Source: Pseudomonas sp. A34-9 (lineage in GTDB: Bacteria > Pseudomonadota > Gammaproteobacteria > Pseudomonadales > Pseudomonadaceae). Taken from it: 64,000 nucleotides of DNA. Positions 3,680-23,500 of the stretch are shown here, piece by piece. Numbering within the stretch: position 1 is the first letter of the stretch; each line of letters opens with the position of its first letter. The notes under the pieces are model-generated. The model searched no databases. It saw only the letters and a list, made by a program, of their open reading frames with translations, and had not been told where the DNA came from. Both the position numbers and the translations under genes were made by a program. The DNA lies in the NCBI RefSeq assembly GCF_029543085.1, contig NZ_CP119967.1:3374501-3438500 (forward strand). The letters are read 5' to 3'.

Positions 3680-3688
3680 GGGCGTTCC

Positions 3689-5250: not shown

Positions 5251-5263
5251 GGAAAATCCTCGT

Positions 5264-8975: not shown

Positions 8976-8979
8976 AACC

Positions 8980-10083
8980 TCACTCCGAAGCTGTAACAGT
9001 GGGCGACGCCAGGCGCGTCAACCCGGTGAAACCGGCCAGCACCAGGCTGCCATCGGCGGCCTGCACGACGCTGGCAATCGGTTTGCCCAGCGGTTTGCCG
9101 AAAGGCTCCAGGGTTGGTGCATCGCCCGAGGTGCGAAACAACGCGCCGCCCTGATTGACCAACAACAACTGGCCGTCAGCGGTACGGATCGCATCACTGA
9201 AGGACACGGGCATCGGTACGGGCGCGGCCACGAAGCTGTTGCCGCCGTCGGTGGAAATAAACGCGTTACCTTTCAGTCCTGCTGCCAGCAGCGCGCCGTC
9301 ATCGCGCAGTTGCAGGGCGAAGAAACTGCCGCTGTAGGGGCTGTCGAGTGCGACGAAGGATCGTCCACCGTCCTCGGAACGGGCGACATAGCCTTGCTCG
9401 CCGGCGACGAACCAACGCTCACCTTGTTGAGCGATGGCATACAGGTGCGCCCCCATCGGATTGTCGATATGGCCCATCAGCGACTGCCAACTCACGCCGC
9501 CGTCTTCGGTGGTAAACGCGAGGCCGTAGGCGCCGACGATCAGGCCGTGACGCGCATCGGTGAACTTGAGGCTCAGAAACGGTTTGTCCGCGCCTTCGCT
9601 GACCATCCGTTCGGCGGTTTGCACACGTGCCGCCGCTGCGTCGGGGTCAATCGCTGTCGGCAGTTGCTCGCGTGCGGCGCGCAATTCCAGTTGCGTAGCG
9701 CGGTTGCCGTCCAGCTGCAACGCCCAGTTTTCGCCAGCGTCGTGGGTGACCAGCACCGCACCGGCATGGCCGACCGCCCAGCCCGTGTTGGCATCGACAA
9801 ATTGCACCGCCGTGAGACTGACGGACACCGGCACCTGCGCCTGCCGCCAATTGAGACCGTTGTCATCGGAGAGCAAGACAATGCCGCGTTCGCCGACCGC
9901 CACCAACCGCGCACCTGCCCGCGCCAGATCAAGCAAGACCGCTTGCCGGGCCTGCGGCGCGCGCATCGCCGGAGTGTTCAATACATCCCCGACGGCAGCG
10001 GCCTGAGCCTGGCTCACGGGTAATACGCAAGGCAGCGCCAGCAGCGCTAACAACCGCCCGAGCACCTGACAGATTCTGTTCAT
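8980..10083 (-). CDS. Exported Asp-box (YCF48/BNR-like) beta-propeller protein
   Basis: 367 residues with a signal peptide ending near SQAQA. Several Asp-box turns with the form S/T-x-D-x-G-x-x-F/W are visible: SDDNGLNW, THDAGENW, TEDGGVSW, SEDGGRSF and STDGGNSF. That regular spacing indicates a beta-propeller of the YCF48/photosystem-assembly fold. It lies between DUF1329 and the MMPL pump and probably acts in the periplasm as an accessory or assembly factor of that transporter. No catalytic residues of sialidases are evident, so an enzymatic role is unlikely. Confidence 0.8.
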   Translation of the reverse strand: MNRICQVLGRLLALLALPCVLPVSQAQAAAVGDVLNTPAMRAPQARQAVLLDLARAGARLVAVGERGIVLLSDDNGLNWRQAQVPVSVSLTAVQFVDANTGWAVGHAGAVLVTHDAGENWALQLDGNRATQLELRAAREQLPTAIDPDAAAARVQTAERMVSEGADKPFLSLKFTDARHGLIVGAYGLAFTTEDGGVSWQSLMGHIDNPMGAHLYAIAQQGERWFVAGEQGYVARSEDGGRSFVALDSPYSGSFFALQLRDDGALLAAGLKGNAFISTDGGNSFVAAPVPMPVSFSDAIRTADGQLLLVNQGGALFRTSGDAPTLEPFGKPLGKPIASVVQAADGSLVLAGFTGLTRLASPTVTASE

Positions 10084-10107
10084 ACCGACCTCGAAACCAC
10101 CTGTGAA

Positions 10108-10138
10108 ACCGGATCGCCACAGCGTGTGGCGATCCGGT
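10108..10138 (-). promoter_or_regulatory. Perfect 14-bp intra-operon hairpin
   Basis: Arms 10108-10121 and 10125-10138 are exact reverse complements separated by a 3-base loop. The structure lies in the 60-bp gap between the DUF1329 stop and the Asp-box start. There is no T-run on the transcribed side, so it is not a classical terminator. It may stabilise the upstream mRNA segment or attenuate expression of downstream genes. Confidence 0.6.
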
Positions 10139-10143
10139 CCGAT

Positions 10144-11532
10144 TCAACGAACCCCGGCACCCGCCATTGCTGCTGGCGAGAATTCCGACGCCTTGTAGCG
10201 ATCGACCACGCCGTACTGCTCAGGCAACCCGGTGTAGACGTTCTGGATAAACCAGGCGCCGGAGGTCAGGTCGTAGAAACCCGAAGACAGTTGCGCTTGT
10301 GCTGGCAGATCCGGCAGCACGGCCGGCAGCGACCACAAGGTCTTGGCGAGCTGGCCGTTGGCGTCCCAGCGATCGCCGAGCATGGCTTGCCAGGTATCTT
10401 CGTCGAGGTAGTAACGGCCCTTCGGCAGTTGATGACGCTTGCCCGGTGCGAGTTCGGCCTCCACCACCCACACGCGATGCAATTCCCAGCGCACGTAATC
10501 AGGATTCATGTGGTGGGCCAGAAACAGGTCTTCCGGTTTGCCTGCCGTCAGGACTTTGTTGGTGTTGTAGGGGATATACATTTCCTGCTTGCCGACCAGT
10601 TTCCAGTCGAAGCGATCGATGCGCCCCTGGAACACGCTCAACTCATCGAACGACATCACCCCGGCGGTTGCCGGCGTCGGTGTGTCGCAGCAGGCATTCG
10701 GCAACTTGCGCACGCGGCGCTGGCCGGTCAGGTAAACGTGCGCCTGGGACTTGTCGCCGTTGATATTGGTGCGCCCCATGATTTGCTCACCCGCACGCAA
10801 CGGCGGGCCGACGTTAAGCAGGCGGAACAACCAGTAATCACCGGCGAAACTTTCCGGCGTGCCGTCCTGGTAGTAATACGGCATGTCCTGAATCGCCTGG
10901 CCGTCGGTGGTCAGCACCTGTTTGCCGTCTGCAGTCATCAGGTAATGACGAAAGTGCATGGCGAGTGACGTGCCGCGCCAATTCAGGATGTGGTTCCACA
11001 TGGCTTCGGCGCCGTTATGCGGAATCGGGAAGGGAATACCGCCAAACGCACCTTCGGGCACCGGTCCAGCGCTGCTGTCGACCAGTTTGGCGCGGGTAGC
11101 ATTTTTCAGGGTGTTGTCATACACCCATTGCGGTGCGGCGGCCGAGCGACGGGTCGGATAGACATCGATACGATAGGTGTCGGGAAAGCGTTTGAACATC
11201 TCCTTGGTGCCATCGCTGAGCTTGCCGGCGTATTGCGCCAGATTCTTCGAGGTGATGCTGAACAGCGGTTTGTCGGCCGCAAACGGATCGCCGCGCTTGC
11301 CGCCCGGTTTATACGCCGGGTCAACTTTGGTGTAACCGCCCTGCCAGGCTGGAATGCTGCCGTCGGCATTGCCTGCACGCTCGGCACCCAGTGGCGTGAG
11401 ACTGCTCGACAGTTTGGCCGCCTCTTCTGCGGTGGCCGCAGTCGCAACCTGGCTCAGGACGGTCAGCGTTCCGAACAAGGCAAAGCACAAGGCCGTAAGG
11501 CGCGGGACACGATTATGGTGGTGAGAAGTCAT
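10144..11532 (-). CDS. DUF1329 family exported protein
   Basis: 462 residues from ATG 11532; GAGGA lies upstream, whereas a TTG two codons earlier is too close. A signal peptide ends near QVATAATA, after which the mature protein starts with an AEEAAKLSSSLTPLGAERAGN-like segment typical of DUF1329 proteins. Two cysteines (NACCDTP) could form a disulfide. DUF1329 proteins are soluble periplasmic or outer-membrane-associated beta-rich proteins, almost always paired with DUF1302, and are thought to help move hydrophobic molecules. The gene is 12 bp downstream of DUF1302. Confidence 0.87.
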   Translation of the reverse strand: MTSHHHNRVPRLTALCFALFGTLTVLSQVATAATAEEAAKLSSSLTPLGAERAGNADGSIPAWQGGYTKVDPAYKPGGKRGDPFAADKPLFSITSKNLAQYAGKLSDGTKEMFKRFPDTYRIDVYPTRRSAAAPQWVYDNTLKNATRAKLVDSSAGPVPEGAFGGIPFPIPHNGAEAMWNHILNWRGTSLAMHFRHYLMTADGKQVLTTDGQAIQDMPYYYQDGTPESFAGDYWLFRLLNVGPPLRAGEQIMGRTNINGDKSQAHVYLTGQRRVRKLPNACCDTPTPATAGVMSFDELSVFQGRIDRFDWKLVGKQEMYIPYNTNKVLTAGKPEDLFLAHHMNPDYVRWELHRVWVVEAELAPGKRHQLPKGRYYLDEDTWQAMLGDRWDANGQLAKTLWSLPAVLPDLPAQAQLSSGFYDLTSGAWFIQNVYTGLPEQYGVVDRYKASEFSPAAMAGAGVR

Positions 11533-11544
11533 GCGCAAGTCCTC

Positions 11545-13242
11545 TTAAAACGTGGTCTTGACGGAGAAGGCGAGGTAATCCCGATCCTTCAGCGATTGCT
11601 TGAAATTGAACTGGCTGAGGCCGTTGAGGTTGGTGTCCTCGGGGCCGTAGTAATGCGTGTAGGTAAGACCGGCCGTGACGCGATCGAGGTAAGTGGCGGT
11701 GATGCCGATGTTGATGTCGCCACCCTTGTCCGGGCCGAACGAGCTGACCACCGCTGATTTGCCCAGCGGGAAGTAACTGACGCCGACCGGAATGCTGATA
11801 TCGATGCCGGAGAAGAACTGGCGGTAGGTCGGCGTGTAGACAAATTTGAAACCCAGGCCGTCATCGGTGGCGTTCGGGTCCAGTGCGGCGCGATTTTTGG
11901 TGACGCTGAGCAGGCGATTCCACGCCACTTCGCCGACCAGTCCGGACTCTCGGGCGATGAAGTTCGGGCCAAACGAAGCCAACACGTTCAGGTTGACGTG
12001 AGCGGTGCGCCCGACCGCATAGAGCGCGTCATCATCGTTGTCGGCAATGACGCCGGGCAGTACGGTCTGACCATTCGAGACCAGCGGCATGTTCCAGCGC
12101 ATCGACGCTTCACCGGCGAAGCTGTACTCGTCCACCGTGGTGGAAAAGCTTGCGCCCAGCGCGCGAATATCTTCGGGGTAAACCCAGTAGTACTCGCCGA
12201 TCTGCCCGGTGCTGAAGTTCGGCGCTGCCGTCGACGGTTTCAGGTACAGCTTCGGCGTCTTGTCGTGGTACTGGATGGCGTAAAGGCCGTACTCGACGGT
12301 CTCAGCGCTGTATTTCAGTTGCAAACCGCCCTGCCCCGAACTGCGTGCTTCCTTATCATTACCGTGGAAAAACGCGGCGGGACTGGCCGGGTTACCGCCG
12401 AGGAATGCCGGAAACGGCGCACCGACGATCAAGCGCTCATTGCCTTCGCCAATGTTGTCGCTGGTGGAGAAATAACTGCCAGCGGCGGGCAGACGTGTTT
12501 CTTCCCACTCGAGCTGGTAGTAAGCACCGAGCGATACGTCGTCAGTCAGTTGGAACGTGCCAGACAGTTGATTGACCGGACGGGTGATTTCCTTGAACTG
12601 CGTGTTAGGCACCGACTGGGCCTTGACCACGTCGACCGGGGCCATGCCACCGGCAATGCCGTTGGCGCCGAAGAACAGGCTTTCGCCCCAGATCAGGCCA
12701 TGACGGCCGGCGCGCACCGACGTTGCGCGGTCGGCCAGTTCGCCGTTCCAGTAGACGAACGCGTCGAGGATTTCGCCGTCACCGCCGTGCAAATGACGGG
12801 TGTCGTCGGTGAACTCGTCGTAGCCGACCGAACGCGCGTTGGCGCGGGACGGATCGTTATTGTCGTTGTTGCCCTGGTACTCGCTGTCGTACCACGCTGC
12901 GCCGCTCAAACGTGCGCCGAAGTCCTGAAACGACAGATCCAGCTCCGAGAGGATATCGGTGCGATTGGAGATCAGGCCTTTTTTGAACGCACGATCGCCA
13001 TCGTCCTGATTGAGCGCCACCTGACCCTCGGTCAACTTGCTGCTCGGATTCTGCGTGCGCCAGGCAGCGCTGTACTTGATCGTGTTGTCCCAGCGCAACT
13101 TGAAATCCGGGTTGCCGGTATCGATGTCGAAAGCGTGAGCGGCCTGACTGCACAGCACCAGCAGCGCAGCAACGCTCAAACCGAAGGGTGCAGACGAGCA
13201 GACCGGGCGACGCGCGAGCGCCGCAGTCGTAGAACTAACCAT
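11545..13242 (-). CDS. DUF1302 family outer-membrane protein
   Basis: 565 residues with a signal peptide ending SQAAHA, followed by FDIDTGNPDFKLRWDNTIKYS, the typical opening of the DUF1302 family. The rest is rich in alternating amphipathic segments, and the protein ends in an aromatic residue (KTTF), as expected of a beta-barrel. It is probably an outer-membrane channel. GAGG is placed upstream of ATG 13242. It is the first transport gene after the FAD monooxygenase (57-bp gap) and likely forms a trans-envelope route with DUF1329, the Asp-box protein and the MMPL pump. Confidence 0.87.
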   Translation of the reverse strand: MVSSTTAALARRPVCSSAPFGLSVAALLVLCSQAAHAFDIDTGNPDFKLRWDNTIKYSAAWRTQNPSSKLTEGQVALNQDDGDRAFKKGLISNRTDILSELDLSFQDFGARLSGAAWYDSEYQGNNDNNDPSRANARSVGYDEFTDDTRHLHGGDGEILDAFVYWNGELADRATSVRAGRHGLIWGESLFFGANGIAGGMAPVDVVKAQSVPNTQFKEITRPVNQLSGTFQLTDDVSLGAYYQLEWEETRLPAAGSYFSTSDNIGEGNERLIVGAPFPAFLGGNPASPAAFFHGNDKEARSSGQGGLQLKYSAETVEYGLYAIQYHDKTPKLYLKPSTAAPNFSTGQIGEYYWVYPEDIRALGASFSTTVDEYSFAGEASMRWNMPLVSNGQTVLPGVIADNDDDALYAVGRTAHVNLNVLASFGPNFIARESGLVGEVAWNRLLSVTKNRAALDPNATDDGLGFKFVYTPTYRQFFSGIDISIPVGVSYFPLGKSAVVSSFGPDKGGDINIGITATYLDRVTAGLTYTHYYGPEDTNLNGLSQFNFKQSLKDRDYLAFSVKTTF

Positions 13243-13299: not shown

Positions 13300-14436
13300 T
13301 TAGATTGGCTCGGCTGTGCGCGCGAGCATTTGCTTGACCAGGCCAATGCGATCGAAGGCGCGGTCGTGCTGCATCTCCTTGTCGCCGGCCAGCACCGAGC
13401 TTTCGCTGATGTATTTGCAACGTTCGAAGCGCCGCGCCATGAAGCGCTGCAACTGCTGCTCGACGCTGCTGGTGGCGGACTGCTCGTGAGTGAGCTCTTC
13501 GCTGAGCACAATTGCGTCTTCGATGGCCATGCCGGCGCCTTGACCGAGGTGCGGCGTGGTCGCGTGGGCCGCATCGCCAATCAGCAGGACGCGTCCGCGA
13601 TGCCACGGCTCATCGACAAACACCACTTCCATTGGCTTGTAGACGACCTGGCTGTTGTCCGTGATTTGCTCGCGCAGTTCGCCGATCAGACCGGTAAAGC
13701 CTTGCAGGCGCTGGCGCATCTGCGCAGCCAGATCGGCAGGATCCATCCACGGATTGGCGGGCTCGTGGGACGTCAGAAACAGGTACATCAAGTCGCCGGC
13801 CAAAGGCACCAGCCCGGCGTTGCCGTCAGTGCTTTGATAGTTGGCCAAATGGTCGATTTGTGGCGCGCGGGGAAAGTTGTAGCGCCACACCGACTGGCCA
13901 GTGAAACGCGGGGTGTAGGCATCGCCGAAGACCAGGCTGCGCACTTTGGAGAACAGACCATCGGCGCCGACCACCAGGTCGTAGCTGCCGCGACTGCCGT
14001 CGGTAAACAGCACGTCGACCTCTGCGCCGTTGTCGTTCAGCGTTTCCACACTCAAGCCCAAACGTACATTGGCACCGAGTTGCAGGGCGGTTTCGCTGAG
14101 GACTTTGTGCAAAGCCAGGCGGGAAATACCGACGTTGGCGGGATACTGCGGGCCGGCGAGGCGTTGACCCGGAATGCGCGCCAGTTGTTGCCCGCCCGGG
14201 CCGTAGATAGCGACGTCTTCGAACGCATAAGCGGCATCGAGATAGCCGTCGAGAACGCCCAGCTTGGCCATTTCACGGACGACGTTGCTCTGTTGAATAA
14301 TCCCGACGCCATAGACTGTCCATTCGGACTTGAGCTCGATCAGGTCGACCTCGATACCTTTACGCCGCAAGGCGATGGCCGCACACAAGCCGCCGATACC
14401 ACCGCCCACGATCAGAACGTTGTTCACTGCACTCAT
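13300..14436 (-). CDS. FAD-dependent aromatic hydroxylase (FdeE-like)
   Basis: 378 residues from ATG 14436 (AGAGAGAA upstream). It is a class A flavoprotein monooxygenase: GxGxxG FAD site GGGIGG at residues 11-16, the DG motif VVGADGLFSKVR at 156-166, and the second FAD motif LLIGDAAHATTPHLGQGAGMA at 284-304. Such enzymes use NAD(P)H and O2 to hydroxylate phenolic rings. It is the first gene of the long minus-strand operon and its promoter holds nod-box-like element A. By position and family it matches the 8-hydroxylase of naringenin in the Herbaspirillum fde operon (recalled); that substrate is inference. Confidence 0.87.
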   Translation of the reverse strand: MSAVNNVLIVGGGIGGLCAAIALRRKGIEVDLIELKSEWTVYGVGIIQQSNVVREMAKLGVLDGYLDAAYAFEDVAIYGPGGQQLARIPGQRLAGPQYPANVGISRLALHKVLSETALQLGANVRLGLSVETLNDNGAEVDVLFTDGSRGSYDLVVGADGLFSKVRSLVFGDAYTPRFTGQSVWRYNFPRAPQIDHLANYQSTDGNAGLVPLAGDLMYLFLTSHEPANPWMDPADLAAQMRQRLQGFTGLIGELREQITDNSQVVYKPMEVVFVDEPWHRGRVLLIGDAAHATTPHLGQGAGMAIEDAIVLSEELTHEQSATSSVEQQLQRFMARRFERCKYISESSVLAGDKEMQHDRAFDRIGLVKQMLARTAEPI

Positions 14437-14525
14437 GGTGTTCTCTCTTTTTATTCTTGTGATCGATGCTGCGTCGGGCACTGCATCGTTGGGTAAAGCT
14501 TCCCGGCAAAGCAGGGATTTGACTA

Positions 14526-14562
14526 ATCGCGAGTAGGGATGCGATGTATCGCCGTACGCGAT
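14526..14562 (-). promoter_or_regulatory. Nod-box-like operator A
   Basis: Two ATC-N9-GAT motifs, 14526-14540 and 14548-14562, are separated by 7 bases, exactly two helical turns centre to centre. The second is embedded in TATCG-N7-CGATA. It lies 90 bp upstream of the FAD hydroxylase start and just beyond the Rieske ferredoxin stop. The surrounding 46 bp (14521-14566) match 40 of 46 bases of element B. It is a likely binding site for the NodD-like regulator at 16147. Confidence 0.75.
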
Positions 14563-14570
14563 ACCTCGAT

Positions 14571-14933
14571 TTATCCCGGCAGCGGCAACTCTTCAGGCAT
14601 TTGCACCAGCAGCCAGCCATCCTTCTCGCAGCTCGGCAGCGCCTGCAGCGTCTGGCCCAGGCACGGGCCGTAGATGCACTCGCCCGTCGCCGGCAGAAAT
14701 TGCGCGCCGTGGGCGTAACAGACGATCAGCTGGCCATCGGCGGACAGGAAACGGTCCTTGCGATACTCCAGGCGCACGTCCAGATGCGGACAACGATTGC
14801 GATAGACCCGCACCTGATTGTCATGACGCAGGGCAAACACACTGTCGCGCCCCTGCGCCAGCGGATCGAACCCCCGCGCCCGGCCCTCCTCCAGTTCGTC
14901 CAGCCGACACAGTGGCTGCGCAATACCGCTCAT
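14571..14933 (-). CDS. Rieske 2Fe-2S ferredoxin-like protein (FdeD-like)
   Basis: 120 residues from ATG 14933. The Rieske cluster ligands are the pairs C-P-H (in NRCPHLDV) and C-x2-H (in VCYAHGAQF). There is no catalytic mononuclear iron domain, so this is a ferredoxin component, not an oxygenase. It starts 14 bp after the dioxygenase gene, forming a two-gene unit. A small Rieske protein beside an extradiol dioxygenase typically keeps the dioxygenase iron reduced or supplies electrons to an oxygenase; here the partner is probably the adjacent VOC enzyme. Confidence 0.85.
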   Translation of the reverse strand: MSGIAQPLCRLDELEEGRARGFDPLAQGRDSVFALRHDNQVRVYRNRCPHLDVRLEYRKDRFLSADGQLIVCYAHGAQFLPATGECIYGPCLGQTLQALPSCEKDGWLLVQMPEELPLPG

Positions 14934-14947
14934 GATCAGCGCCGCCC

Positions 14948-15889
14948 TCATCCGAGTTTTGGCGGTGGTCCGCCCGGGGCCCATTTTTCTTTGGCGCTGA
15001 ACAGGAACAACTGCGAGTTATCCGCCGACAGCGGAGCGCGACGGGCCTCCCAGGCGTCATCGTGCTTATCCATATCGGCGTCATATTCGATGTGGCAGCC
15101 CAGCGGACTGTTGAAATACCAGAACCAGTTGGAGCCAAACACGTGACGGCCCGGCCCCCAGAAGCTGGTCCAGCCTTTTTGCTCGAAACGCGTCCCGGCC
15201 AGCAGCACTTCGGTGCCACTGCCCATGTGGAAGGTGAAGTGTTCGCAACCCTTCATGTGCGGCGGGGTCTGGATCATGAACAGGCAATGGTGATCGTCAG
15301 AACCGGCCGGGCGCATGAACGGCCCGGCGCCAATGAAGGTGTCGGTGGTGCGAAAACCCAAACGCTTGGCGTAAAAGGCTTCAGCTTTTGCCGCATCGGG
15401 GACGAAATACACCACGTGCGACAAAGTGCGCGGAACAGCGCTCATATCGAGGGTGATGCCTGGCTGGTTAAGTGGCCGCTGTGGCGCATGGCCGGCGGCG
15501 TTGGTCAGGTCATCCGGTGCGCTGTAAGGCTTGCGTACGCTGACCTGAAACGCGATCGCGAAACCCATGTCATCAACGCTGTGCAGCACGCCGTGTTGAT
15601 CACGGCGAACAACACGATCACGGGCCAGCTCATCTTCGATGGCATCCAGATCGCTGATCGCAGCGACCCCGTAGACCGTCTCGCGAATGGACGGCGCCGG
15701 GCCGATCGCCACCGGCAAATCAGGATCGTCGGCTCGGCGGATAATCACGGCGGTGCCGTCCAGCGCTTCGAAGCGCCCGCCTTCGCTGTCAACGCCGACC
15801 GGTGCAAGGCCGTAGTCGCGCAGGCAATCGGTGCAGGCTTGAATGTCATCGACGCCAAAAATCAGGGCATCAAGGCCAATGATGTTCAT
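14948..15889 (-). CDS. VOC-family extradiol ring-cleavage dioxygenase (FdeC-like)
   Basis: 313 residues built of two vicinal-oxygen-chelate modules. The C-terminal module carries the expected Fe(II) triad: His158 in LSHVVYF, a histidine near 217-221 in CEHFTFHMG, and Glu268 in CHIEYD. Enzymes of this type open catechol-like rings next to the hydroxyl pair. The gene starts its own minus-strand unit with the Rieske ferredoxin; nod-box-like element B lies about 145 bp upstream. It would act after the FAD hydroxylase has created vicinal hydroxyls. The substrate is not proven by sequence. Confidence 0.85.
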   Translation of the reverse strand: MNIIGLDALIFGVDDIQACTDCLRDYGLAPVGVDSEGGRFEALDGTAVIIRRADDPDLPVAIGPAPSIRETVYGVAAISDLDAIEDELARDRVVRRDQHGVLHSVDDMGFAIAFQVSVRKPYSAPDDLTNAAGHAPQRPLNQPGITLDMSAVPRTLSHVVYFVPDAAKAEAFYAKRLGFRTTDTFIGAGPFMRPAGSDDHHCLFMIQTPPHMKGCEHFTFHMGSGTEVLLAGTRFEQKGWTSFWGPGRHVFGSNWFWYFNSPLGCHIEYDADMDKHDDAWEARRAPLSADNSQLFLFSAKEKWAPGGPPPKLG

Positions 15890-15907
15890 GGCTTACCACT
15901 CCATTGA

Positions 15908-16030
15908 AATTATGATCCGGTGACTGTCGCCATGAACGCCTTGCAGCGCGCCGGGCCTGACTGGAAACCGGTGGTGGTGTCGGCAGCAGGGCCGACTGCG
16001 GCGAAGATTGGCGCAAGGGCCGAGCGCTGA
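15908..16030 (+). pseudogene. Possible 3' coding remnant between VOC gene and LysR gene
   Basis: A short plus-strand frame opens after a stop at 15905-15907 and ends at TGA 16028-16030. It reads NYDPVTVAMNALQRAGPDWK and then VVVSAAGPTAAKIGARAER, which looks like a genuine C-terminal tail with Pseudomonas codon use. The only ATG (15932) would give 32 residues and has no clear ribosome site. It may be a relic of a gene displaced when the cluster was assembled; chance is also possible. Confidence 0.25.
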
Positions 16031-16033
16031 CTA

Positions 16034-16070
16034 ATCGCGAGTCGGGATGCGACCTATCGGCAAACGCGAT
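16034..16070. promoter_or_regulatory. Nod-box-like operator B (divergent promoter)
   Basis: ATC-N9-GAT at 16034-16048 and again at 16056-16070, 7 bases apart, in the intergenic region between the divergent dioxygenase (start 15889) and LysR (start 16147) genes. This places it to control both the dioxygenase unit and regulator autoregulation. It shares 40 of 46 bases with element A, including the flanking GACTAATCGCGAGT. Confidence 0.75.
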
Positions 16071-16146
16071 ACCTGCGACGAAGGTTGACGCGCCGATGGA
16101 TTCGTTCGAATGTATTGCGAAAATAAATACAAGAACGGACCTGCCC

Positions 16147-17109
16147 ATGCGTTTCAACCATCTGGATCTGAACCTGCTGGTCGCGCTCGATGTATTGCTC
16201 GAAGAGCAGAACATCACCCGCGCAGCAGAACGCCTGCACATGACCCAATCCGCCACCAGCGGCGTGCTCGCGCGTTTGCGGACCTACTTTGAGGATGAGT
16301 TGCTGGTTCAGGTGGGGCGCAAGATGCAGCCCACGCCCTATGCCACGGAACTGGCCAGACCGGTGCGTGAAGTCCTGCTGACGATTCAGTCCTCAATCAC
16401 CGCCAAACCGGTGTTCGACCCGGCCACCAGCAAGCGACATTTTCGCTTGGTGACCTCCGACTATCTGATCAGCGTGCTGTTCGCCCAGGTGATCCAGAAC
16501 ATTCATCAGGAAGCGCCCAACATCACCTTCGAAATGCTTGGCCCCAGCGACAATTCCGGCGAGTTGCTGGTACGTGGCGAGGTCGATCTGATGATTGTTC
16601 CCGAGCGCTACATCATTGAAGGCCACCCTTCGCGCCTGCTGTTCGAAGAAGAACACGTGTGCGTGGTGTGGCAAGGCAATACGCAAGTCGGCGACACCCT
16701 GACCCTTGAGCAGTACATGGAGATGGGCCATGTCTCGGTGGGCTTCGGCCGCACACGGCACATGAGCATCGAAGAATGGTTCATGAATCAATACGGCTTC
16801 AATCGGCGTATTGAAGTGATCACCAGCGACTTCAATACCTTGCCGCAACTGATTGTCGGCACACAGCGCATCGCCACGATGCACCAGCGTCTGGCGAACC
16901 TCTACGCGCACTATCTGCCGCTGCGCATCCTGCCGCCGCCGGTGAAAATTCCGATCATGCACGAGTACATGTTGTGGCACCGCAGCGTCGACGGTGACCC
17001 GATGCACCGCTGGCTGCGCGAACGCATCAGCGAATCCATTCAGCATCTGCAACAGGTGCCCATCGTATCTCGCGATACCTCGTATCCGCCGTCACGATTG
17101 GCCAATTAG
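16147..17109 (+). CDS. LysR-type regulator, NodD/NahR/FdeR-like
   Basis: 320 residues from ATG 16147. The opening MRFNHLDLNLLVALDVLLEE with ITRAAERLHMTQSATS helix-turn-helix is the NodD/NahR-type N-terminus. NodD-group proteins are activated by flavonoids, NahR by salicylate. It is divergent from the dioxygenase unit and followed by the alpha/beta hydrolase; three nearby promoters carry the nod-box architecture, so it is the probable activator of the cluster. An upstream in-frame GTG/ATG (16096) would add a tail and run into the operator region, so 16147 is preferred. Its last codons contain nod-box-like element C. Confidence 0.88.
   Translation: MRFNHLDLNLLVALDVLLEEQNITRAAERLHMTQSATSGVLARLRTYFEDELLVQVGRKMQPTPYATELARPVREVLLTIQSSITAKPVFDPATSKRHFRLVTSDYLISVLFAQVIQNIHQEAPNITFEMLGPSDNSGELLVRGEVDLMIVPERYIIEGHPSRLLFEEEHVCVVWQGNTQVGDTLTLEQYMEMGHVSVGFGRTRHMSIEEWFMNQYGFNRRIEVITSDFNTLPQLIVGTQRIATMHQRLANLYAHYLPLRILPPPVKIPIMHEYMLWHRSVDGDPMHRWLRERISESIQHLQQVPIVSRDTSYPPSRLAN
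17062..17098 (+). promoter_or_regulatory. Nod-box-like operator C
   Basis: ATC-N9-GAT at 17062-17076 and 17084-17098 with a 7-base gap, identical spacing to A and B but in opposite orientation, upstream of the plus-strand alpha/beta hydrolase (start 17169). It overlaps the 3' end of the LysR coding sequence. A GGCCAATTAGTC stretch follows, echoing the reverse of the GACTAAT flank of A and B. Confidence 0.7.
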
Positions 17110-17168
17110 TCGGGTGATCCTTAACGTGCCTTGGGAATGCCAAGGCAACCATAAGGACAACAACAATC

Positions 17169-18326
17169 ATGTTTCGCTATTTCCCGACCAACTACGTGTG
17201 GAATCTCTCTGTCGACCTGGCCATTGAAATGGGCGCCCGCATGGGCGAAATCGAAGCGATGTGCGCCCCTTTGCAGGAGGCTGCTAAACAGCCAGACGCG
17301 GCCGGCACCCGTGCCTTTCGCGAGACCTGGGCGAAAATGGCTGACAAGCTCTGCGGTCTGGCCGAAGAAGACGAAGGCAATGGCCGAATGCTCTCGGCTG
17401 GCGAAAAATACAACCGCGCCGCCACCTATTATCTGACCTGCGAGCGCCTGCAAGCCCACGGCGCGCCGGGCCGCACCGAGCTGTATCAGCGTTTTCTGCA
17501 GACCTTCAAGCGCGGCATCGAGCTGTCGCGTGAAAACTGCGAACGGGTAGAAATCCCGTACGAGGGCAAACATCTTTCCGGCTTGCTCGTGCGCGCCGAA
17601 GGCGTCGATGGGCCTGCGCCGATTCTGGTGCAGGTCAACGGTCTGGATTCGACCAAAGAAATGAAATACCGCGTGGGTTTGCCAGCCTGGCTGGCGAAGC
17701 GCGGCATCTCTTCGCTGATCATCGACCAGCCCGGCACTGGCGAAGCGTTGCGCCTGCATGGCCTGACCGCACGATTCGACAGTGAGCATTGGGCCAGCCG
17801 CGTCGTGGATTGGCTGGAAACCCGAAGCGACGTCGATGCCAAACGTATCGGTCTGGAAGGTGTCTCGTTGGGCGGTTATTACTGCCCGCGTGCGGTTGCA
17901 TTCGAACCGCGCTTCGCCTGCGGCGTAGTGTGGGGCGCCAACCATGACTGGCGTGATGTGCAAAAGCGTCGACTGGAAAAGGAAGGCAGCTTCCCGGTGC
18001 CGCACTACTGGGCGCATGTCTGCTGGGTGTGGGGCGCCAAGGACGTCGACGAGTTCATGACCATCGCCGAAGACGTACACCTTGACGGCGTGCTCGACCG
18101 GATCAAGGTGCCGTTCCTGGTGACCCACGGTGAACAGGATTCGCAGATACCGCTGAAATGGGCGCATCGCACCTACGAACAACTGGTCAACAGTCCAAAA
18201 TGTGAACTGAAAGTCTTCACCGAACGTGAAGGTGGTGTGCAGCATTCGAGCTTCGACAACAGCATCAACGCCGGTCATTACATAGCGGACTGGATCGCCG
18301 AAACGCTGGGCGGTCGCACCGCCTGA
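17169..18326 (+). CDS. Alpha/beta hydrolase (pseudooxynicotine hydrolase/Ayg1-like C-C hydrolase)
   Basis: 385 residues. A helical N-terminal half (1-125) precedes an alpha/beta-hydrolase domain with nucleophile Ser233 in GVSLGG, acid Asp324 in THGEQDSQIP and His359 in GGVQHSSFD. This domain order is that of the 2,6-dihydroxypseudooxynicotine hydrolase/FrsA-like family, whose members hydrolyse C-C bonds next to a ketone on phenolic compounds. It stands alone between the regulator and a strong terminator and has nod-box-like element C in its promoter. It probably cleaves the acyl chain or a ring-fission product of the pathway substrate (inference). Confidence 0.83.
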   Translation: MFRYFPTNYVWNLSVDLAIEMGARMGEIEAMCAPLQEAAKQPDAAGTRAFRETWAKMADKLCGLAEEDEGNGRMLSAGEKYNRAATYYLTCERLQAHGAPGRTELYQRFLQTFKRGIELSRENCERVEIPYEGKHLSGLLVRAEGVDGPAPILVQVNGLDSTKEMKYRVGLPAWLAKRGISSLIIDQPGTGEALRLHGLTARFDSEHWASRVVDWLETRSDVDAKRIGLEGVSLGGYYCPRAVAFEPRFACGVVWGANHDWRDVQKRRLEKEGSFPVPHYWAHVCWVWGAKDVDEFMTIAEDVHLDGVLDRIKVPFLVTHGEQDSQIPLKWAHRTYEQLVNSPKCELKVFTEREGGVQHSSFDNSINAGHYIADWIAETLGGRTA

Positions 18327-18350
18327 TCACTGAAAAACACACACAAAAAA

Positions 18351-18382
18351 AACGCCGGACAATCTCTCGATTGTCCGGCGTT
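18351..18382 (+). terminator. Strong bidirectional rho-independent terminator
   Basis: A perfect 13-bp stem (18351-18363 with 18370-18382) and a 6-base loop, preceded by an A-run and followed by TTTTC. It ends the hydrolase transcript 24 bp after the stop. The amidohydrolase downstream therefore needs its own promoter. Confidence 0.9.
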
Positions 18383-18510
18383 TTCGTTAACGGCTGCAGC
18401 CCGGCGCTGCTATTGACGCGATCAATGCGCAGCCATCGATGCAATCTGTTGGTCGGCCCCTCGCCTGCTCTTTAGCCTCATGTGCATAACAATCACACAG
18501 TGAAAACGCC

Positions 18511-19860
18511 ATGACTGCCCTGCATCTGAAATGCCAGACCCTGTTTGATGGCACTGGACTGGAAACCCGCCAACAACAGACATTGATTGTCGAAAACGGC
18601 CTGCTCAGTTACGTCGGGCCCACCGCGCTGGCCCCCGCTCCCCATCCCGGCGATACCCAGCTGGACGCCGGTGATGATTTCGTCATGCCGGGGCTGGTGG
18701 ACGTGCATACGCATCTGGCCTTCGGTAACGCGCAGAGCGAAGAAGACATTGATCTGTGGACCAGCGACGAATTTCGCGCTTTGCGCGGGATGTTTTTCGC
18801 GCAACACGTACTCGCGGCCGGCGTCACCAGCATGGTCTGCCCCGGCGACAGCGGTCAACTCAGCATCGCCGTGCGCAATGCGGTGACCGCTGGTTTGTTT
18901 GAAGGTCCGAGGATCGCAGCCAGCAGCCGCGTCATCACCAATCGGCAGAGTCTGAATGATTGGTTCCCGAGTCGGGTGGGCGCCCCGGAATACTTCACCG
19001 CGCAGTTGGTCACCAGCCGCAGCGACGCCCTTGCGGAGATCCGCAAGCAGGCCAAGGACGGCGTCGACCTGATCAAGATCGCCATGGACGGCACGCACCG
19101 CCGTCCCAATGGCGAAATCATTGCTGCCTTTACCGCCGATGAAACCTTCGAAATGGTCGAGGAAGCGCATCGTCTGGGCTGCAAGGTCGCCACGCATGCC
19201 TACGGTCGCGAGGCCGTGATGTACGCGGCGCGCGCAGGCGTTGATCTGGTTTTCCACGCCTTTTACATGGACGACGCGTGCATCGAGGCACTGCTTGAGG
19301 CCGGTAGCATCCTTGCCCCGACCATGACGTTCCCGCAGAACACTGTGGATTTCTGCCAGCCCCACGACCCGGCCATCAGCACCGGGTATGCCGGTTATTG
19401 TGCACGCACACTGGACGTTGGTTCGGCGGTACTCAAACGCGCCAAAGCGGCCGGCGTACCCTTTGCCTGCGGCAGTGACAGCGGCTTCGCGGTAACGCCT
19501 TACGGCGAGTGGCACGCCCGAGAGCTGGAGCTGCTGGTGGCCCGGCTTGGATTCACCCCGGCCGAAGCGTTATACGCCGCGACTGCTGTCGGCGCGCGCT
19601 GCATGCCGCGCGGTGAAACCCTCGGCTCACTGCAAGTGGGCAAGCAGGCCGACTTCCTGGTGCTCGACGGCTCGCCACTGGATGATATTCGCATCCTTCA
19701 GGATCGTTCACGCCTCAAAGCGGTGTACAAGGCCGGGCAACCGGTGCGCATGGATCGCAGCCCCTACAACCCCAAGCAGGTGTCCGATTTCAACTCGCTG
19801 AAATGGACGGATCTATACACCCGCGACCGCGTTGCCCAACTCGGAAAATGGGCCCTATGA
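18511..19860 (+). CDS. Amidohydrolase-superfamily metal-dependent hydrolase
   Basis: 449 residues. The superfamily metal site is present: HxH at His66/His68 (VDVHTHLAFG), a Lys in VDLIKIAMDGTH, His residues in ATHAYGREA and VFHAFYMDD, and the catalytic Asp in CGSDSGFAV. It belongs to the imidazolonepropionase/prolidase-like branch, which hydrolyses cyclic amides, lactones or peptide-like bonds. It forms an operon with the GlcG-like gene. Whether it belongs to the phenolic regulon is open: no nod-box element was seen in its promoter (18385-18510). Confidence 0.82.
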   Translation: MTALHLKCQTLFDGTGLETRQQQTLIVENGLLSYVGPTALAPAPHPGDTQLDAGDDFVMPGLVDVHTHLAFGNAQSEEDIDLWTSDEFRALRGMFFAQHVLAAGVTSMVCPGDSGQLSIAVRNAVTAGLFEGPRIAASSRVITNRQSLNDWFPSRVGAPEYFTAQLVTSRSDALAEIRKQAKDGVDLIKIAMDGTHRRPNGEIIAAFTADETFEMVEEAHRLGCKVATHAYGREAVMYAARAGVDLVFHAFYMDDACIEALLEAGSILAPTMTFPQNTVDFCQPHDPAISTGYAGYCARTLDVGSAVLKRAKAAGVPFACGSDSGFAVTPYGEWHARELELLVARLGFTPAEALYAATAVGARCMPRGETLGSLQVGKQADFLVLDGSPLDDIRILQDRSRLKAVYKAGQPVRMDRSPYNPKQVSDFNSLKWTDLYTRDRVAQLGKWAL

Positions 19861-19871
19861 GGACACAAGCC

Positions 19872-20318
19872 ATGCAAAGACTGGATCTGCTCACTGCCAC
19901 AAACATGGCGAGCGATGCCATCCGCATTGCTCGCGAAACCGGGATCAAACCGCTGGGCGTCGCCGTACTGGATGCCGCCGCCCATCCATTGGCGGTTCTG
20001 CGCGACGAAAACGCCAGCTTCCTACGCCCGCAAATCGCCGTCGGCAAGGCCCGCGGTTGCCTGGGTATGGGTTTTGGAGGGCGTGAACTGGCGCGACGGG
20101 CGCAGGCCATGCCGGCGTTTTTCGATGCGATCAACAGTTTGACCGACGGTGAGGTGATTCCCGTGGCGGGTGGTGTGTTGATCCGTAATGCCGAGGGGGT
20201 GGTGCTCGGGGCCATCGGCATCAGTGGCGATACCTCCGACAACGACGAGCGCTGCGCATTGCTGGCCATCGCCAAGGCCGGCCTGGTCGCCGACAACGGC
20301 GATCAGCCAGAGGGTTGA
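19872..20318 (+). CDS. GlcG/HbpS-like heme-binding-fold protein
   Basis: 148 residues from ATG 19872, chosen over ATG 19857 because GAGGA lies at 19859-19863. The protein has the HbpS/GlcG fold signature: AIRIARETGIKPLGVAVLD at the start and VAGGVLIRN...LGAIGISGD at the end. These small proteins often accompany catabolic operons; some bind heme or degradation products, others have no known role. It lies 12 bp after the amidohydrolase and its 3' end overlaps the convergent LysR gene by 16 bp. Confidence 0.82.
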   Translation: MQRLDLLTATNMASDAIRIARETGIKPLGVAVLDAAAHPLAVLRDENASFLRPQIAVGKARGCLGMGFGGRELARRAQAMPAFFDAINSLTDGEVIPVAGGVLIRNAEGVVLGAIGISGDTSDNDERCALLAIAKAGLVADNGDQPEG

Positions 20319-21238
20319 TCGAGCAATGCGGCCTGTTCCAGGAGCAGGCCGCGAAACCACTGCATGGCCGGGTCATGTGCTTGATAGGGATGCCATTGCA
20401 AGACTTGCACGGCCTCGGGGAACGCCAGCGGTGCCGGGTGGACGCGCAAGGGATAACGTTGGGCAAAGCATTGCGCCTGGCGTTGAAACACCGTGGCGAT
20501 ACGTGCGGTGCCGACAATGTACTCCGGCATCAGCACAAAGCTTTCAACGGTCACTGCCACTTGCCGCTCAATCCCGAGTTCATGCAGGTGCACGGCATCC
20601 ATTGCCAGGTTCTGCCCGTCGGCAAACTCGCGCACCACATGCGTCGCAGCGCAGTAGTCGGCGAGGCTCAGTTGCTCGGCGAACTGTGGCTGTTGGGCGC
20701 AGACGATGCAACAGAGCTGGTCAGTCATGAGCGGCACATGGGGATAGGCCGGATTCAACCGTCGCTGCGGCACGATCACGCAATCACTGCGCCGATAATC
20801 CAGCGCTTCGCTGACGACATCGCCGTCGCGCGGAACAGGCATGTCACGCAGGCTCAAGCGAATGCCCGGCGCCATGCGCGCCAATGCACGACTGACCGAA
20901 GCCAACAGCACGTCGGCGACGTAATCGGAGGCGACCAGGGTGATGTGCCGGTTGCACTGTGCCGGATCAAAATTGAGCGGAGCGTCGACGATTTCCCGGG
21001 TCAGTGCCAACGCTGCACGCACTTTTGGCAGCAACGCCTGCCCCAACGCGGTGGGCTCCAGGCGTCGTCCCACCGGCACCAGTAACGGGTCATTGAAATG
21101 TTCACGCAAGCGGCCCAGTGCCGAACTGGCCGCTGACTGTCCCAGGCACAGACGCTCGGCCGCCCGGCTGACACTGCATTCACTCAGCAAGGCGTCCAGC
21201 GCAACCAACAGATTAAGGTCGAGGCGGCGATATCGCAT
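20303..21238 (-). CDS. LysR-type regulator, second NodD/NahR-like paralogue
   Basis: 311 residues opening with MRYRRLDLNLLVALDALLSE and VSRAAERLCLGQSAASS, clearly the same subfamily as the regulator at 16147. It overlaps the convergent GlcG-like gene by 16 bp. A near-perfect nod-box-like element (D) lies about 100 bp upstream of its start, suggesting autoregulation or control by the paralogue. It could regulate the amidohydrolase-GlcG pair or tune the whole cluster. Confidence 0.87.
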   Translation of the reverse strand: MRYRRLDLNLLVALDALLSECSVSRAAERLCLGQSAASSALGRLREHFNDPLLVPVGRRLEPTALGQALLPKVRAALALTREIVDAPLNFDPAQCNRHITLVASDYVADVLLASVSRALARMAPGIRLSLRDMPVPRDGDVVSEALDYRRSDCVIVPQRRLNPAYPHVPLMTDQLCCIVCAQQPQFAEQLSLADYCAATHVVREFADGQNLAMDAVHLHELGIERQVAVTVESFVLMPEYIVGTARIATVFQRQAQCFAQRYPLRVHPAPLAFPEAVQVLQWHPYQAHDPAMQWFRGLLLEQAALLDQPSG

Positions 21239-21337
21239 GTCGGTTCCGTCGAAGGCGGTGGGTCAGGTGTTTGCCCGCAATGACGAGCATGGCCCACAAC
21301 ACATCATGACCTTAACCAGCGGCCTGCCGATGCACCA

Positions 21338-21374
21338 ATCGCATGCGTCGCTGGCAGGTATCGTCGACGGTGAT
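21338..21374 (-). promoter_or_regulatory. Nod-box-like operator D with long dyad
   Basis: ATC-N9-GCT at 21338-21352 (one mismatch) and a perfect ATC-N9-GAT at 21360-21374, again 7 bases apart. The second motif is inside an 11-bp perfect inverted repeat (21352-21362 with 21372-21382) with no T-run, so it is an operator rather than a terminator. It lies upstream of the second NodD-like gene. Confidence 0.65.
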
Positions 21375-21403
21375 ACCTGCCAGTGCGCAGGGCAGCCCGC
21401 AGC

Positions 21404-21913
21404 TTACGACCAGAATCCTTGGTGCGGTTCAGCCGCCTCGCCCTCCAGCATCGGTCCCAGCACACTGACCTTGCGCTGCCCCTTGGCAAACACCTCGCGG
21501 CACGGCAGCGAGAACGTCGGGTTCTCAGGATGGTCGCCCGTCAATCCCAGCAACGCATGCTCCGACAAGGCATAAACCACTCGCCCGATCCCCGTCCAAT
21601 ACACCGCCCCGGCACACATGCAGCAAGGTTCGGCGCTGGTGTACAGCGTGCACAATTCAAGCTCTTGCGGCGACAGCAGCTTGGCCGCCGCCGCTGCCGC
21701 CACCAACTCCGCGTGTTGAGTGGGATCACCTTCCGGTGGCATCGAGTTGTTCCCCGCTTCGACAATCACCTTGCCGTTGCGGTCGGCTACCAACGCCGCG
21801 AACGGATGGCGACCGCGTTGTTTCGATGCCTCGGACAAGGCGATGGTCTGGCGCAACAACGCCAGATCCAGTTCGCTGACGCCAGCCGGGATGAGCTGAG
21901 TGAATTGATTCAT
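21404..21913 (-). CDS. Nucleoside/nucleobase deaminase (guanine deaminase-like)
   Basis: 169 residues from ATG 21913 (AGGAG upstream). It is a zinc-dependent cytidine-deaminase-fold enzyme: His67 and catalytic Glu69 in QHAEL, then Cys97 and Cys100 in the PCxxC motif of TSAEPCCMC. Size and motif context fit the bacterial GuaD/TadA-like group that deaminates free purines such as guanine. It lies 32 bp after a xanthine/uracil-type permease, which supports a nucleobase salvage or nitrogen-use role. The exact base is not readable. Confidence 0.85.
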   Translation of the reverse strand: MNQFTQLIPAGVSELDLALLRQTIALSEASKQRGRHPFAALVADRNGKVIVEAGNNSMPPEGDPTQHAELVAAAAAAKLLSPQELELCTLYTSAEPCCMCAGAVYWTGIGRVVYALSEHALLGLTGDHPENPTFSLPCREVFAKGQRKVSVLGPMLEGEAAEPHQGFWS

Positions 21914-21945
21914 GGGTAACTCCTTGGGCAGTGGAAAAAACAAAG

Positions 21946-23286
21946 TCAGTCGGCCAGTTCAGCCGAGGTAGCGCCGATGGTTTCGGTCGATTTTTTTTCA
22001 TTGTTGAGCAGGATGTTGAGCACGATGGCAGTGATCGCGCCGAGGAAAATCCCGCTGTCGAGCACCAGTTTCAGGGTCGGGCCGACGTGTTCGAACAACG
22101 CCGGAAAGGACATCGGCAGCACCCCGACACTCACCGAAACCGCGACGATGATGCCGTTGCGTGTGCCCTCGAACTGGACACGCGACAGTTCCTGAATCCC
22201 CGCCACCGTGGTCATGCCGAACATGACGATCGCGCAGCCACCGAGCACTGGCGTCGGCACTGCGGCGATTAACGCGCCGAGTTTCGGGAACAAGCCCATC
22301 AGCACCATGATTGCCCCGGCAGCGGCCACGACGAAGCGGCTTTTGACGTTCGAAAGCGCAATCAAACCGGTGTTCTGGGTGAACGCGTTGTAAGGAAAAC
22401 TGTTGAACAAGCCGCCGAGCATCGTCGACAAGCCGTCGGCGCGAAATGCGTTGCCGAGGGTCTGTTGCGTGGTTGGTTTGCCGGTCAATTTGCCGATCGC
22501 CAGGCAGTTGCCGGTGGTCTCGGCCATGATTACCAGCATCGCCAGGGTCATGATCAGAATCGGCACCGGAGCGAATTCCGGCGCTCCGAAGGCCATGGGC
22601 GCACTCAGCTCAAACCATGCGGCTTCGCTGACCCGGCTGAAGTGCGTCATGCCGCAGGCCGCGGCGATCAGGCTGCCGATGAACAAGCCAATCAGTACGC
22701 TGAGGTTACCGAGGAAGCCCTTGCATTTGGCATAGATCACTAACGTCACGCTGACCGTGGCCAGGCCCAGCAACAGGTTCGCGGGATTACCGAAATCCGC
22801 CGCGTCGGGATTGCCGCCGCCCAACCAGATCGCCGCCGCTGGCATCAGCGAGATGCCGATAATGGTGATCAGACTGCCAATCACCACCGGTGGAAAGAAG
22901 CGCAGCAAGCGGCTGAACACCGGCGCCAAGGCAATCGTAATGAAGCCTGCGGCAATCACCGCACCGAAAATCTGACTGAGCCCGAACTCTTTACCGATCA
23001 TGATCATCGGCGCCAGAGCAATGAATGAGCAGCCCTGAATCAGGGGCAGACGCGCGCCGAATTTCCAGAAGCCCAGGGTTTGAATCAGCGTCGCCACGCC
23101 GGAGGTCAACAGGTTAGCGTTGATCAGCAACACGATCTGAGCCGAGGTCAGCCCCATCGCACTGCCGAGAATCAGCGGCACCGCCACTGCTCCCGCGTAC
23201 ATCACCAGCACATGCTGCAAGCCAAACGTGAACAACTGTCGCAGTGGCAAAATCTCGTCCACCGGATGAATGCGTTGTGGGGTCAT
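21946..23286 (-). CDS. NCS2 nucleobase:cation symporter (xanthine/uracil permease family)
   Basis: 446 residues from ATG 23286 (AGGAG upstream). About 12-14 TM segments are visible, with the NCS2 features QHVLVMYAGAVAVPLIL near the start and the substrate-site helix ETTGNCLAIGKLTG followed by GGLFNSFPYNAFTQNTGLIAL. These are typical of purine transporters. It is the first gene of a two-gene unit with the deaminase and is divergent from a LysR gene that probably controls it. Expected role: import of a purine or related heterocycle. Confidence 0.9.
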   Translation of the reverse strand: MTPQRIHPVDEILPLRQLFTFGLQHVLVMYAGAVAVPLILGSAMGLTSAQIVLLINANLLTSGVATLIQTLGFWKFGARLPLIQGCSFIALAPMIMIGKEFGLSQIFGAVIAAGFITIALAPVFSRLLRFFPPVVIGSLITIIGISLMPAAAIWLGGGNPDAADFGNPANLLLGLATVSVTLVIYAKCKGFLGNLSVLIGLFIGSLIAAACGMTHFSRVSEAAWFELSAPMAFGAPEFAPVPILIMTLAMLVIMAETTGNCLAIGKLTGKPTTQQTLGNAFRADGLSTMLGGLFNSFPYNAFTQNTGLIALSNVKSRFVVAAAGAIMVLMGLFPKLGALIAAVPTPVLGGCAIVMFGMTTVAGIQELSRVQFEGTRNGIIVAVSVSVGVLPMSFPALFEHVGPTLKLVLDSGIFLGAITAIVLNILLNNEKKSTETIGATSAELAD

Positions 23287-23401
23287 TTCACACGCTCCTG
23301 AAGGTGCGGCATCTGTTGAGATTGCGGGCATGCTCAGGGGCGTTTGTGAGAGTGGATTCGCCCCGGAGATCGTTTGTGCGGGGCCATCATTGAGCGTTTA
23401 T

Positions 23402-23430: not shown

Positions 23431-23500
23431 TTTTTCGATGGCACAATCAGGCATTCCTCAGACCCTGCAAACCTCCATTTTCGACCCGGGAGTTCACCGC

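Follow-up and report, generated by a model that had tools for sequence, protein, structure and literature searches.

Nod-box-like elements of Pseudomonas sp. A34-9 mark a conserved LysR regulon with directional sites, most probably under a NodD-like regulator

We analysed 64,000 nucleotides of the Pseudomonas sp. A34-9 genome (NZ_CP119967.1, positions 3,374,501 to 3,438,500; hereafter the window, in whose coordinates positions are given), where a set of catabolic genes lies beside two genes for paralogous LysR-type regulators, here called LysR1 and LysR2. The original prediction had recognized four elements of the form ATC-N9-GAT-N7-ATC-N9-GAT in front of these genes, had likened them to the nod boxes of rhizobia and had assigned them to one regulon. 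Their coordinates and spacings proved exact, with no mismatch in sites 1 to 3 and one in site 4. The elements, given with the longer putative operators that contain them, and the genes that they adjoin are as follows (FAD, flavin adenine dinucleotide).

14520 to 14565, minus strand: site 1, core 14526-14562, perfect, towards the FAD monooxygenase gene; matrix score 67.5
16028 to 16073, minus strand: site 2, core 16034-16070, perfect, between the divergent dioxygenase and LysR1 genes; matrix score 69.8
17059 to 17104, plus strand: site 3, core 17062-17098, perfect, towards the alpha/beta hydrolase gene; matrix score 44.8
21332 to 21377, minus strand: site 4, core 21338-21374, one mismatch, towards the LysR2 gene; matrix score 21.9
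13300 to 14436, minus strand: FAD-dependent monooxygenase (FAD_binding_3), heading a leftward run of genes
14571 to 14984, minus strand: Rieske ferredoxin-type protein (domain match), FdeD-like by context
14948 to 15889, minus strand: VOC-type extradiol dioxygenase (Glyoxalase domain), FdeC/IfcB-like
16147 to 17109, plus strand: LysR1, NodD-like LysR-type regulator of 320 residues (HTH_1 and LysR_substrate above cut-off), proposed regulator of the boxes
17169 to 18326, plus strand: alpha/beta hydrolase, related to 2,6-dihydroxypseudooxynicotine C-C hydrolase (2jbw, E 8.7e-19)
20303 to 21238, minus strand: LysR2, LysR-type regulator of 311 residues (HTH_1 and LysR_substrate above cut-off)

Since the pattern equals its own reverse complement, every site matches both strands. 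In the genome, a single contig of 6,541,947 bases, it matched perfectly at three places only, all inside one 2.6-kb stretch of this cluster, and with one mismatch at eight places, site 4 among them; the genome thus holds no multitude of equally good sites elsewhere. With up to two mismatches, the window held five matches compared with a mean of 1.74 in 100 shuffles, two of which also reached five. A second pattern, representing the conserved second half with up to two mismatches, recovered from the genome sites 1 to 3 and one unrelated two-mismatch place, and missed site 4. When the 64 kb were scored with a position matrix made from 44 non-redundant sites (window and nearest relatives excluded), the four sites took the four top ranks, and the maximum in 10 mononucleotide shuffles was 2.3. 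The matrix also revealed a direction, with every site scoring far higher on the strand that reads towards its own gene than on the other; this is the minus strand for sites 1, 2 and 4 and the plus strand for site 3. Site 4 was clearly the weakest (21.9 versus 44.8 to 69.8); its first dyad forms a perfect 12-9-12 palindrome of 33 base pairs (bp; 21351-21383). The four elements are real.

All four do stand before the genes to which they had been assigned, but site 3 lies within the 3′ end of the LysR1 frame (stop at 17109) and is not intergenic. The hydrolase operator is thus inside the last LysR1 codons (17062-17109; C-terminal PIVSRDTSYPPSRLAN). Many LysR1 orthologues (303-307 residues) end earlier than the LysR1 of the window, and the frame seems to have been extended into the hydrolase operator in this lineage.

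Conservation was examined by searching 298 Pseudomonas genomes, including that of A34-9, for the dioxygenase, which was found in 53 genomes at 58 places (E 1e-60 or better). All 58 were inspected (the window and 57 fetched loci), and 43 of them, the window included, carry a dioxygenase of at least 75% identity. In this set, counting boxes with at most one mismatch within 350 bp upstream, a box precedes the dioxygenase in 43/43 loci and LysR1 in 42/42, these two upstream regions being largely one divergent stretch, the hydrolase in 41/41 and the FAD monooxygenase in 36/39. The frequency was lower for LysR2 (12/25), an amidohydrolase (10/25) and DUF1302 (4/42), and boxes with up to two mismatches were absent upstream of the Rieske (0/42), DUF1329 (0/42) and HbpS (0/25) genes. 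With the stretches upstream of 13 tracked genes set aside, the remaining 605,427 positions of those loci contained five perfect matches and one with a single mismatch. In two loci (L035 and L081) the hydrolase gene lies behind LysR2, and there too a perfect box stands upstream of it. Where the dioxygenase falls below 75% identity (15 places), boxes were kept beside a LysR1 of 68-72% identity; the other places had none or a single box with one mismatch.

Some boxes in these loci occupy other positions. Four loci (L031, L032, L082 and L083) retain a box 120-290 bp upstream of DUF1302, with no FAD monooxygenase homologue detected there. Of the 43 loci, 25 combine genes for the amidohydrolase, HbpS and LysR2, and the amidohydrolase boxes lie 162-166 bp upstream of their gene in ten of them (L067-L071, L074, L076, L077, L035 and L036; eight perfect and two with one mismatch), most flanked by a run of A. 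With a box in 10/25 loci and none in the window, the amidohydrolase was kept out of the regulon. At a further locus (L259:3304-3340, genome G276), a perfect box with the extended consensus lies about 2.1 kb beyond LysR2 and may mark another regulon member. A reversed-pattern control gave no match in the 298 genomes; it is biased by a probable scarcity of TAG and CTA in them, and we did not take it as proof.

Alignment of the gene-directed sites extended the element to about 46 bp, the majority reading of 45 non-redundant sites being AGGTATCGCGTTTGGCGATACNTCGCATCCCNACNCGCGATTNGTCA. Downstream of the box, A at +25 and T at +29 were found together in 56 of 70 non-redundant sites, whereas no other offset exceeded 17. 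Sorted by gene, both bases occur in 13/15 FAD monooxygenase, 22/24 dioxygenase, 13/23 hydrolase and 8/8 LysR2 sites. The corresponding hexamers of the window, each at +24 to +29 from its site and each a putative -10 element, are the following.

14497 to 14502, minus strand: -10-like GAAGCT, site 1
16005 to 16010, minus strand: -10-like CAATCT, site 2
17122 to 17127, plus strand: -10-like TAACGT, site 3
21309 to 21314, minus strand: -10-like TAAGGT, site 4

Taking these hexamers as -10 elements puts the centres of the two dyads near -65 and -43, which would be the standard geometry of a LysR activator if the -10-like sequence is indeed the promoter. An arrangement of recognition and activation sites is described for the LysR family in passages of PMC8407307. 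A T-N11-A dyad, as demanded of a LysR-type operator, is present at site 2 upstream of both LysR1 and its divergent neighbour.

This architecture bears on a very improbable alternative, in which the elements are structural repeats or hairpins, such as terminators or mobile repeats, and not operators. The palindromic pattern, the 33-bp palindrome of site 4 and the extra match before the amidohydrolase in some relatives, with its A run alongside, are what such an origin could offer. The fixed direction, the fixed distance to the -10-like sequence, the position before catabolic genes and the co-occurrence with LysR1 described below argue for operators, as does the finding that none of the seven terminator-like sites listed in the region overlaps any of the four boxes. 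A strong terminator-like hairpin of 17 pairs, with a T tail on the minus strand, lies between the hydrolase and amidohydrolase genes (18348-18385).

The original prediction had named the regulators at 16147 (LysR1) and/or 20303 (LysR2) as controlling all four promoters, and the distribution of both was compared with that of the boxes. With orthologues defined by at least 66% identity and the best seven candidates per genome scored, LysR1 is present in 47 of the 298 genomes; a match in G043, only 54% identical, stayed outside the 47. Two or more perfect boxes occur in 45/47 LysR1 genomes and in 2/251 others (Fisher 2e-48, relatedness not corrected), and at least one in 46/47 and 64/251, respectively. 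Single genomes point the same way: G160 has its LysR1 beside LysR2 and far from the dioxygenase cluster, with boxes still at the dioxygenase and FAD monooxygenase genes, and G129 and G009 carry a second LysR1 copy that two perfect boxes adjoin. LysR1 is therefore the likely binder of the boxes, as judged from this co-occurrence. 

A rival assignment, which we consider rather unlikely, is that LysR2 binds the boxes, alone or with LysR1, site 4 being autoregulatory for LysR2 and sites 1 to 3 being shared. Site 4 does have the promoter geometry of the others, and 30 of the 31 LysR2 genomes also hold LysR1 and the dioxygenase; the remaining point in its favor is G019, where LysR2 has a promoter box with one mismatch and neither LysR1 (E 1e-60) nor the dioxygenase was matched. 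Conversely, 17 of the 47 LysR1 genomes lack a LysR2 match (E 1e-90), and 16 of these 17 carry at least two perfect boxes, the exception being G023; moreover, only 13 of the 30 LysR2 promoters examined (the 31st locus was outside this count) have a box with at most one mismatch. Control of sites 1 to 3 by LysR2 was thus not borne out, and of the two regulators originally named it is LysR1 that the distribution favors.

Perfect matches that recur in genomes without LysR1 had been considered as operators of further LysR proteins. This idea was withdrawn: tblastn (E 1e-3) in six fetched loci of 8.0-8.5 kb, two of them from the LysR1-positive genomes G265 and G267, found no gene like LysR1, LysR2 or the third LysR of the window (at 23438). 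The perfect matches at L260-L265 are of sequence types that recur across several Pseudomonas genomes, and the 8 kb fetched around them showed no gene resembling LysR1, LysR2 or LysR3.

Conservation and co-occurrence with LysR1 uphold the view of a regulon with a nod-box-like layout and an adjacent NodD-like regulator. We propose, with a probability of about 0.82, that the elements are operators of LysR1, which would act as a NodD-like LysR-type activator driving four units. The operator is pictured as a directional element, about 46 bp long, in which two dyads follow each other with a 22-bp period. The first dyad, of the GTATC-N9-GATAC type, would serve as the recognition site, centred near -65, and the second, ATCC-N9-GATT, as the activation site near -43, abutting a poor -35 sequence and followed by the -10 element 24-29 bp after the box. 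A LysR1 tetramer would occupy both dyads and, with an inducer, recruit RNA polymerase. The units driven would be the run that starts with the FAD monooxygenase, the pair of dioxygenase and Rieske genes and the alpha/beta hydrolase, with a weaker effect on LysR2; LysR1 itself is perhaps driven across the divergent region. Together, the gene products may act on the A ring of a flavonoid-type plant compound by hydroxylation and meta cleavage, in the manner of the fde and ifc pathways.

Several observations weigh against this proposal or parts of it. The FAD monooxygenase gene stands without a box at L038, L041 and L042; the LysR1 of G023 (66% identical, with one stop inside the aligned stretch) is accompanied by boxes with one mismatch only; and for site 4 the box of G019, in the genome without a LysR1 match, must be set on this side as well. 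The sampled species are related, and the counts are not independent. As for the promoters, the share of hydrolase sites with both -10-like bases is low (13/23), and a plain sigma-70 scan of the region returned none (shuffles, 1.9), which is compatible with weak, activator-dependent promoters but lends them no support. Such clusters also occur in marine genera, which is less in line with a plant flavonoid as substrate. Finally, of 11 Burkholderia-type LysR genes, 50-54% identical to LysR1, none has a box with up to two mismatches upstream.

Because of these Burkholderia-type regulators, the box layout has to be called patchy outside the LysR1 clade. This was seen in an upstream test of LysR genes from 79 named loci with related clusters, 12 further loci, the window and three rhizobial plasmids, in which 94 of 96 rows were usable. 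At most two mismatches were found upstream of 19/19 LysR1 orthologues (18 at p<=0.02, dinucleotide shuffling), 19/47 distant cluster regulators of 37-61% identity (15 at p<=0.02), 7/13 LysR2 rows, 4/10 NodD-like genes and 1/5 distant LysR genes. Counted without redundancy over the Pseudomonas and named loci, the figures were 37/38 for orthologues, 17/46 for distant cluster regulators, 14/27 for LysR2 and 1/7 for other LysR genes; the same limit was reached in 20/600 stretches of 350 bp drawn at random from these loci, some of which may contain boxes. The sole perfect match among the distant cluster regulators (L122) is a plain 22-bp direct repeat. In Paraglaciecola, Trinickia and Comamonadaceae, boxes with one mismatch also accompany LysR genes that adjoin such clusters and share only 40-48% identity with LysR1.

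We then consider how far the likeness to rhizobia extends. The window and the rhizobial NodD/nod box system share ATC-N9-GAT dyads, the N7 gap, all four triplets and the 22-bp period; they differ in their targets, which in the window are catabolic genes and not nodABC, and in their spacers, which are dissimilar. With the last triplet relaxed, ATC-N9-GAT-N7-ATC-N9-(G/A)AT is found on S. meliloti pSymA (481766-481802) in the interval that separates a NodD-like gene from nodA and, with one mismatch, at the same kind of place on R. tropici pRtrCIAT899b (235350-235386). The Pseudomonas spacer matrix did not single out rhizobial matches: over 29 fetched loci, some of which overlap, z ranged from -1.89 to 1.67 with the better orientation used. 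An identity of the second half with the nod box (ATCC..ACA..CGATT), suggested by eye, was dropped, the matrix likeness not being significant. A search that recovers NodA in 3/3 rhizobial plasmids found no NodA match in the A34-9 genome.

At the protein level, LysR1 shares 38-44% identity with ten proteins of pNGR234a, pRtrCIAT899b and pSymA, which were named NodD-like by similarity and place (pSymA was without annotation here, the other two plasmids partly annotated), and its best plasmid matches include an annotated NodD2. Its closest solved relatives by sequence are the ligand domains 9x6w and 9iib, and these give 383-386 bits against the NodD-like protein encoded next to nodA on pSymA of S. 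meliloti. Close relatives of LysR1 are labelled "nod box-dependent" or "Nodulation protein D" in the sources, labels that we judged to be automatic names. In a tree of 84 rows, from which 12 of the 96 LysR rows (near-duplicate loci) had been dropped, the LysR1 orthologues form one group (100/100) and the ten NodD-like rows another (100/99) without LysR1, and both sit among regulators of similar catabolic clusters. The closest NCBIfam model for both LysR1 and LysR2 is that of BsrA of Pseudomonas aeruginosa, a broad regulator; their scores of 181.9 and 167.5 are far below the family cut-off of 480. Passages of PMC8407307 describe a TATC-N9-GATA motif, bound by SrpA, in the bsrA promoter of strain PAK.

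The nod-box claim thus stands for the layout and falls for the rest. Because the spacers are unlike, LysR1 lies outside the NodD group and the genome has no NodA match, the boxes are best described, on these comparisons, as nod-box-like in layout and not as nod boxes. The question is then whether the layout means anything special, and we give a little less than an even chance to the explanation that two T-N11-A dyads about two helical turns apart are simply the general LysR design, with no particular tie to NodD or flavonoids. The paired T-N11-A dyads are indeed presented as family-wide in passages of PMC5002191 and PMC8407307, Pseudomonas spacers do not recognise the rhizobial matches, and LysR1 stays out of the NodD-like group. 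Yet all four ATC/GAT triplets and the 22-bp period agree with the nod box, the closest solved relatives of LysR1 are NodD-type domains and an annotated NodD2 is among its plasmid matches, and other LysR-type genes of the same loci reach two mismatches or fewer in just the 1/7 given above, a small control.

A broader and more doubtful idea is that the nod-box layout predates nodulation, as the ancestral operator of a LysR clade devoted to aromatic or flavonoid ring cleavage from which NodD would have branched off into symbiosis. The boxes with one mismatch at the LysR genes of Paraglaciecola, Trinickia and Comamonadaceae speak for it, and in the midpoint-rooted tree, the NodD-like group falls among the cluster regulators, with weak inner support.

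Beyond the FAD monooxygenase gene, the leftward run continues as follows.

1906 to 13242, minus strand: genes for DUF1302, DUF1329, YCF48-like, MMPL, MFS, cupin (4669-5250), FAA hydrolase, epimerase and cyclase proteins

From its layout, the run would form one transcript. Of an fde/ifc-type cluster, the window has the FAD monooxygenase, the Rieske protein and the FdeC/IfcB-type dioxygenase, and the last of these shares 69% identity with a protein of metagenomic origin that carries the name FdeC at JGI. Because the enzyme set and the dioxygenase resemble fde and ifc, flavonoid degradation is our leading guess for the pathway, favored slightly over its alternatives, and the enzyme set makes a flavonoid inducer plausible. 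On the right, an amidohydrolase, an HbpS-like protein, LysR2, a deaminase-family protein and a xanthine/uracil-type permease are encoded side by side (18511-23331).

In Herbaspirillum seropedicae, FdeR is a NodD-like LysR-type regulator of the flavonoid (naringenin) degradation operon (passages of PMC10799723), FdeE, an FAD monooxygenase, acts with the Rieske protein FdeD to hydroxylate naringenin at C8 before ring cleavage (passages of PMC8552027), and FdeC is the A-ring dioxygenase (passages of PMC11069340). The window shares with fde a NodD-like regulator, with FdeR compared by description only, and the FAD monooxygenase, Rieske protein and FdeC-like dioxygenase; it differs in having several boxes for separate transcription units and a dihydroxypseudooxynicotine-hydrolase-like gene. 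The H. seropedicae fde cluster was not among the matches listed, which comprise 79 loci kept from at least 441 relatives and the best 120 of 2784 proteins. In Variovorax, as reported in the passages of PMC11069340, IfcA, IfcB and cupins act on isoflavones, the hydrolase gene is dispensable for daidzein degradation, and ifcA homologues are noted in Pseudomonas. Common to ifc and the window are the FAD monooxygenase, the glyoxalase-type dioxygenase and the dihydroxypseudooxynicotine-hydrolase-like protein, with two cupins there versus one found in the window; those passages describe no regulator or operator, unlike the present case. Searches of open-access papers listed none on this Pseudomonas operator.

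LysR1 might also control these promoters while the compound sensed and degraded is an aromatic other than a flavonoid, a real possibility that we rank below the flavonoid guess. Compared with its counterpart in most named clusters outside the LysR1-type loci, the FAD monooxygenase reaches only about 31-43% identity, the closest solved relative of the hydrolase is a nicotine-pathway enzyme, and the marine genera fit here as well. Set against this is the full set of FAD monooxygenase, Rieske protein, FdeC-like dioxygenase, hydrolase, cupin and FAA hydrolase, which parallels fde and ifc as described in passages of PMC11069340 and PMC8552027.

The window thus holds a real, conserved and directional LysR regulon, most likely run by LysR1, and the likeness of its boxes to the nod box is architectural. 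It provides a testable regulon with an exact operator, a promoter spacing and a regulator, and the catabolic set with LysR1 occurs in 47 of the 298 sampled Pseudomonas genomes. If the inducer is a flavonoid, common pseudomonads would respond to the kind of plant signal that rhizobia perceive, and would do so with a related regulator and DNA layout; the system would then offer a nonsymbiotic reference for the origin of NodD and the nod box and, possibly, a flavonoid sensor.

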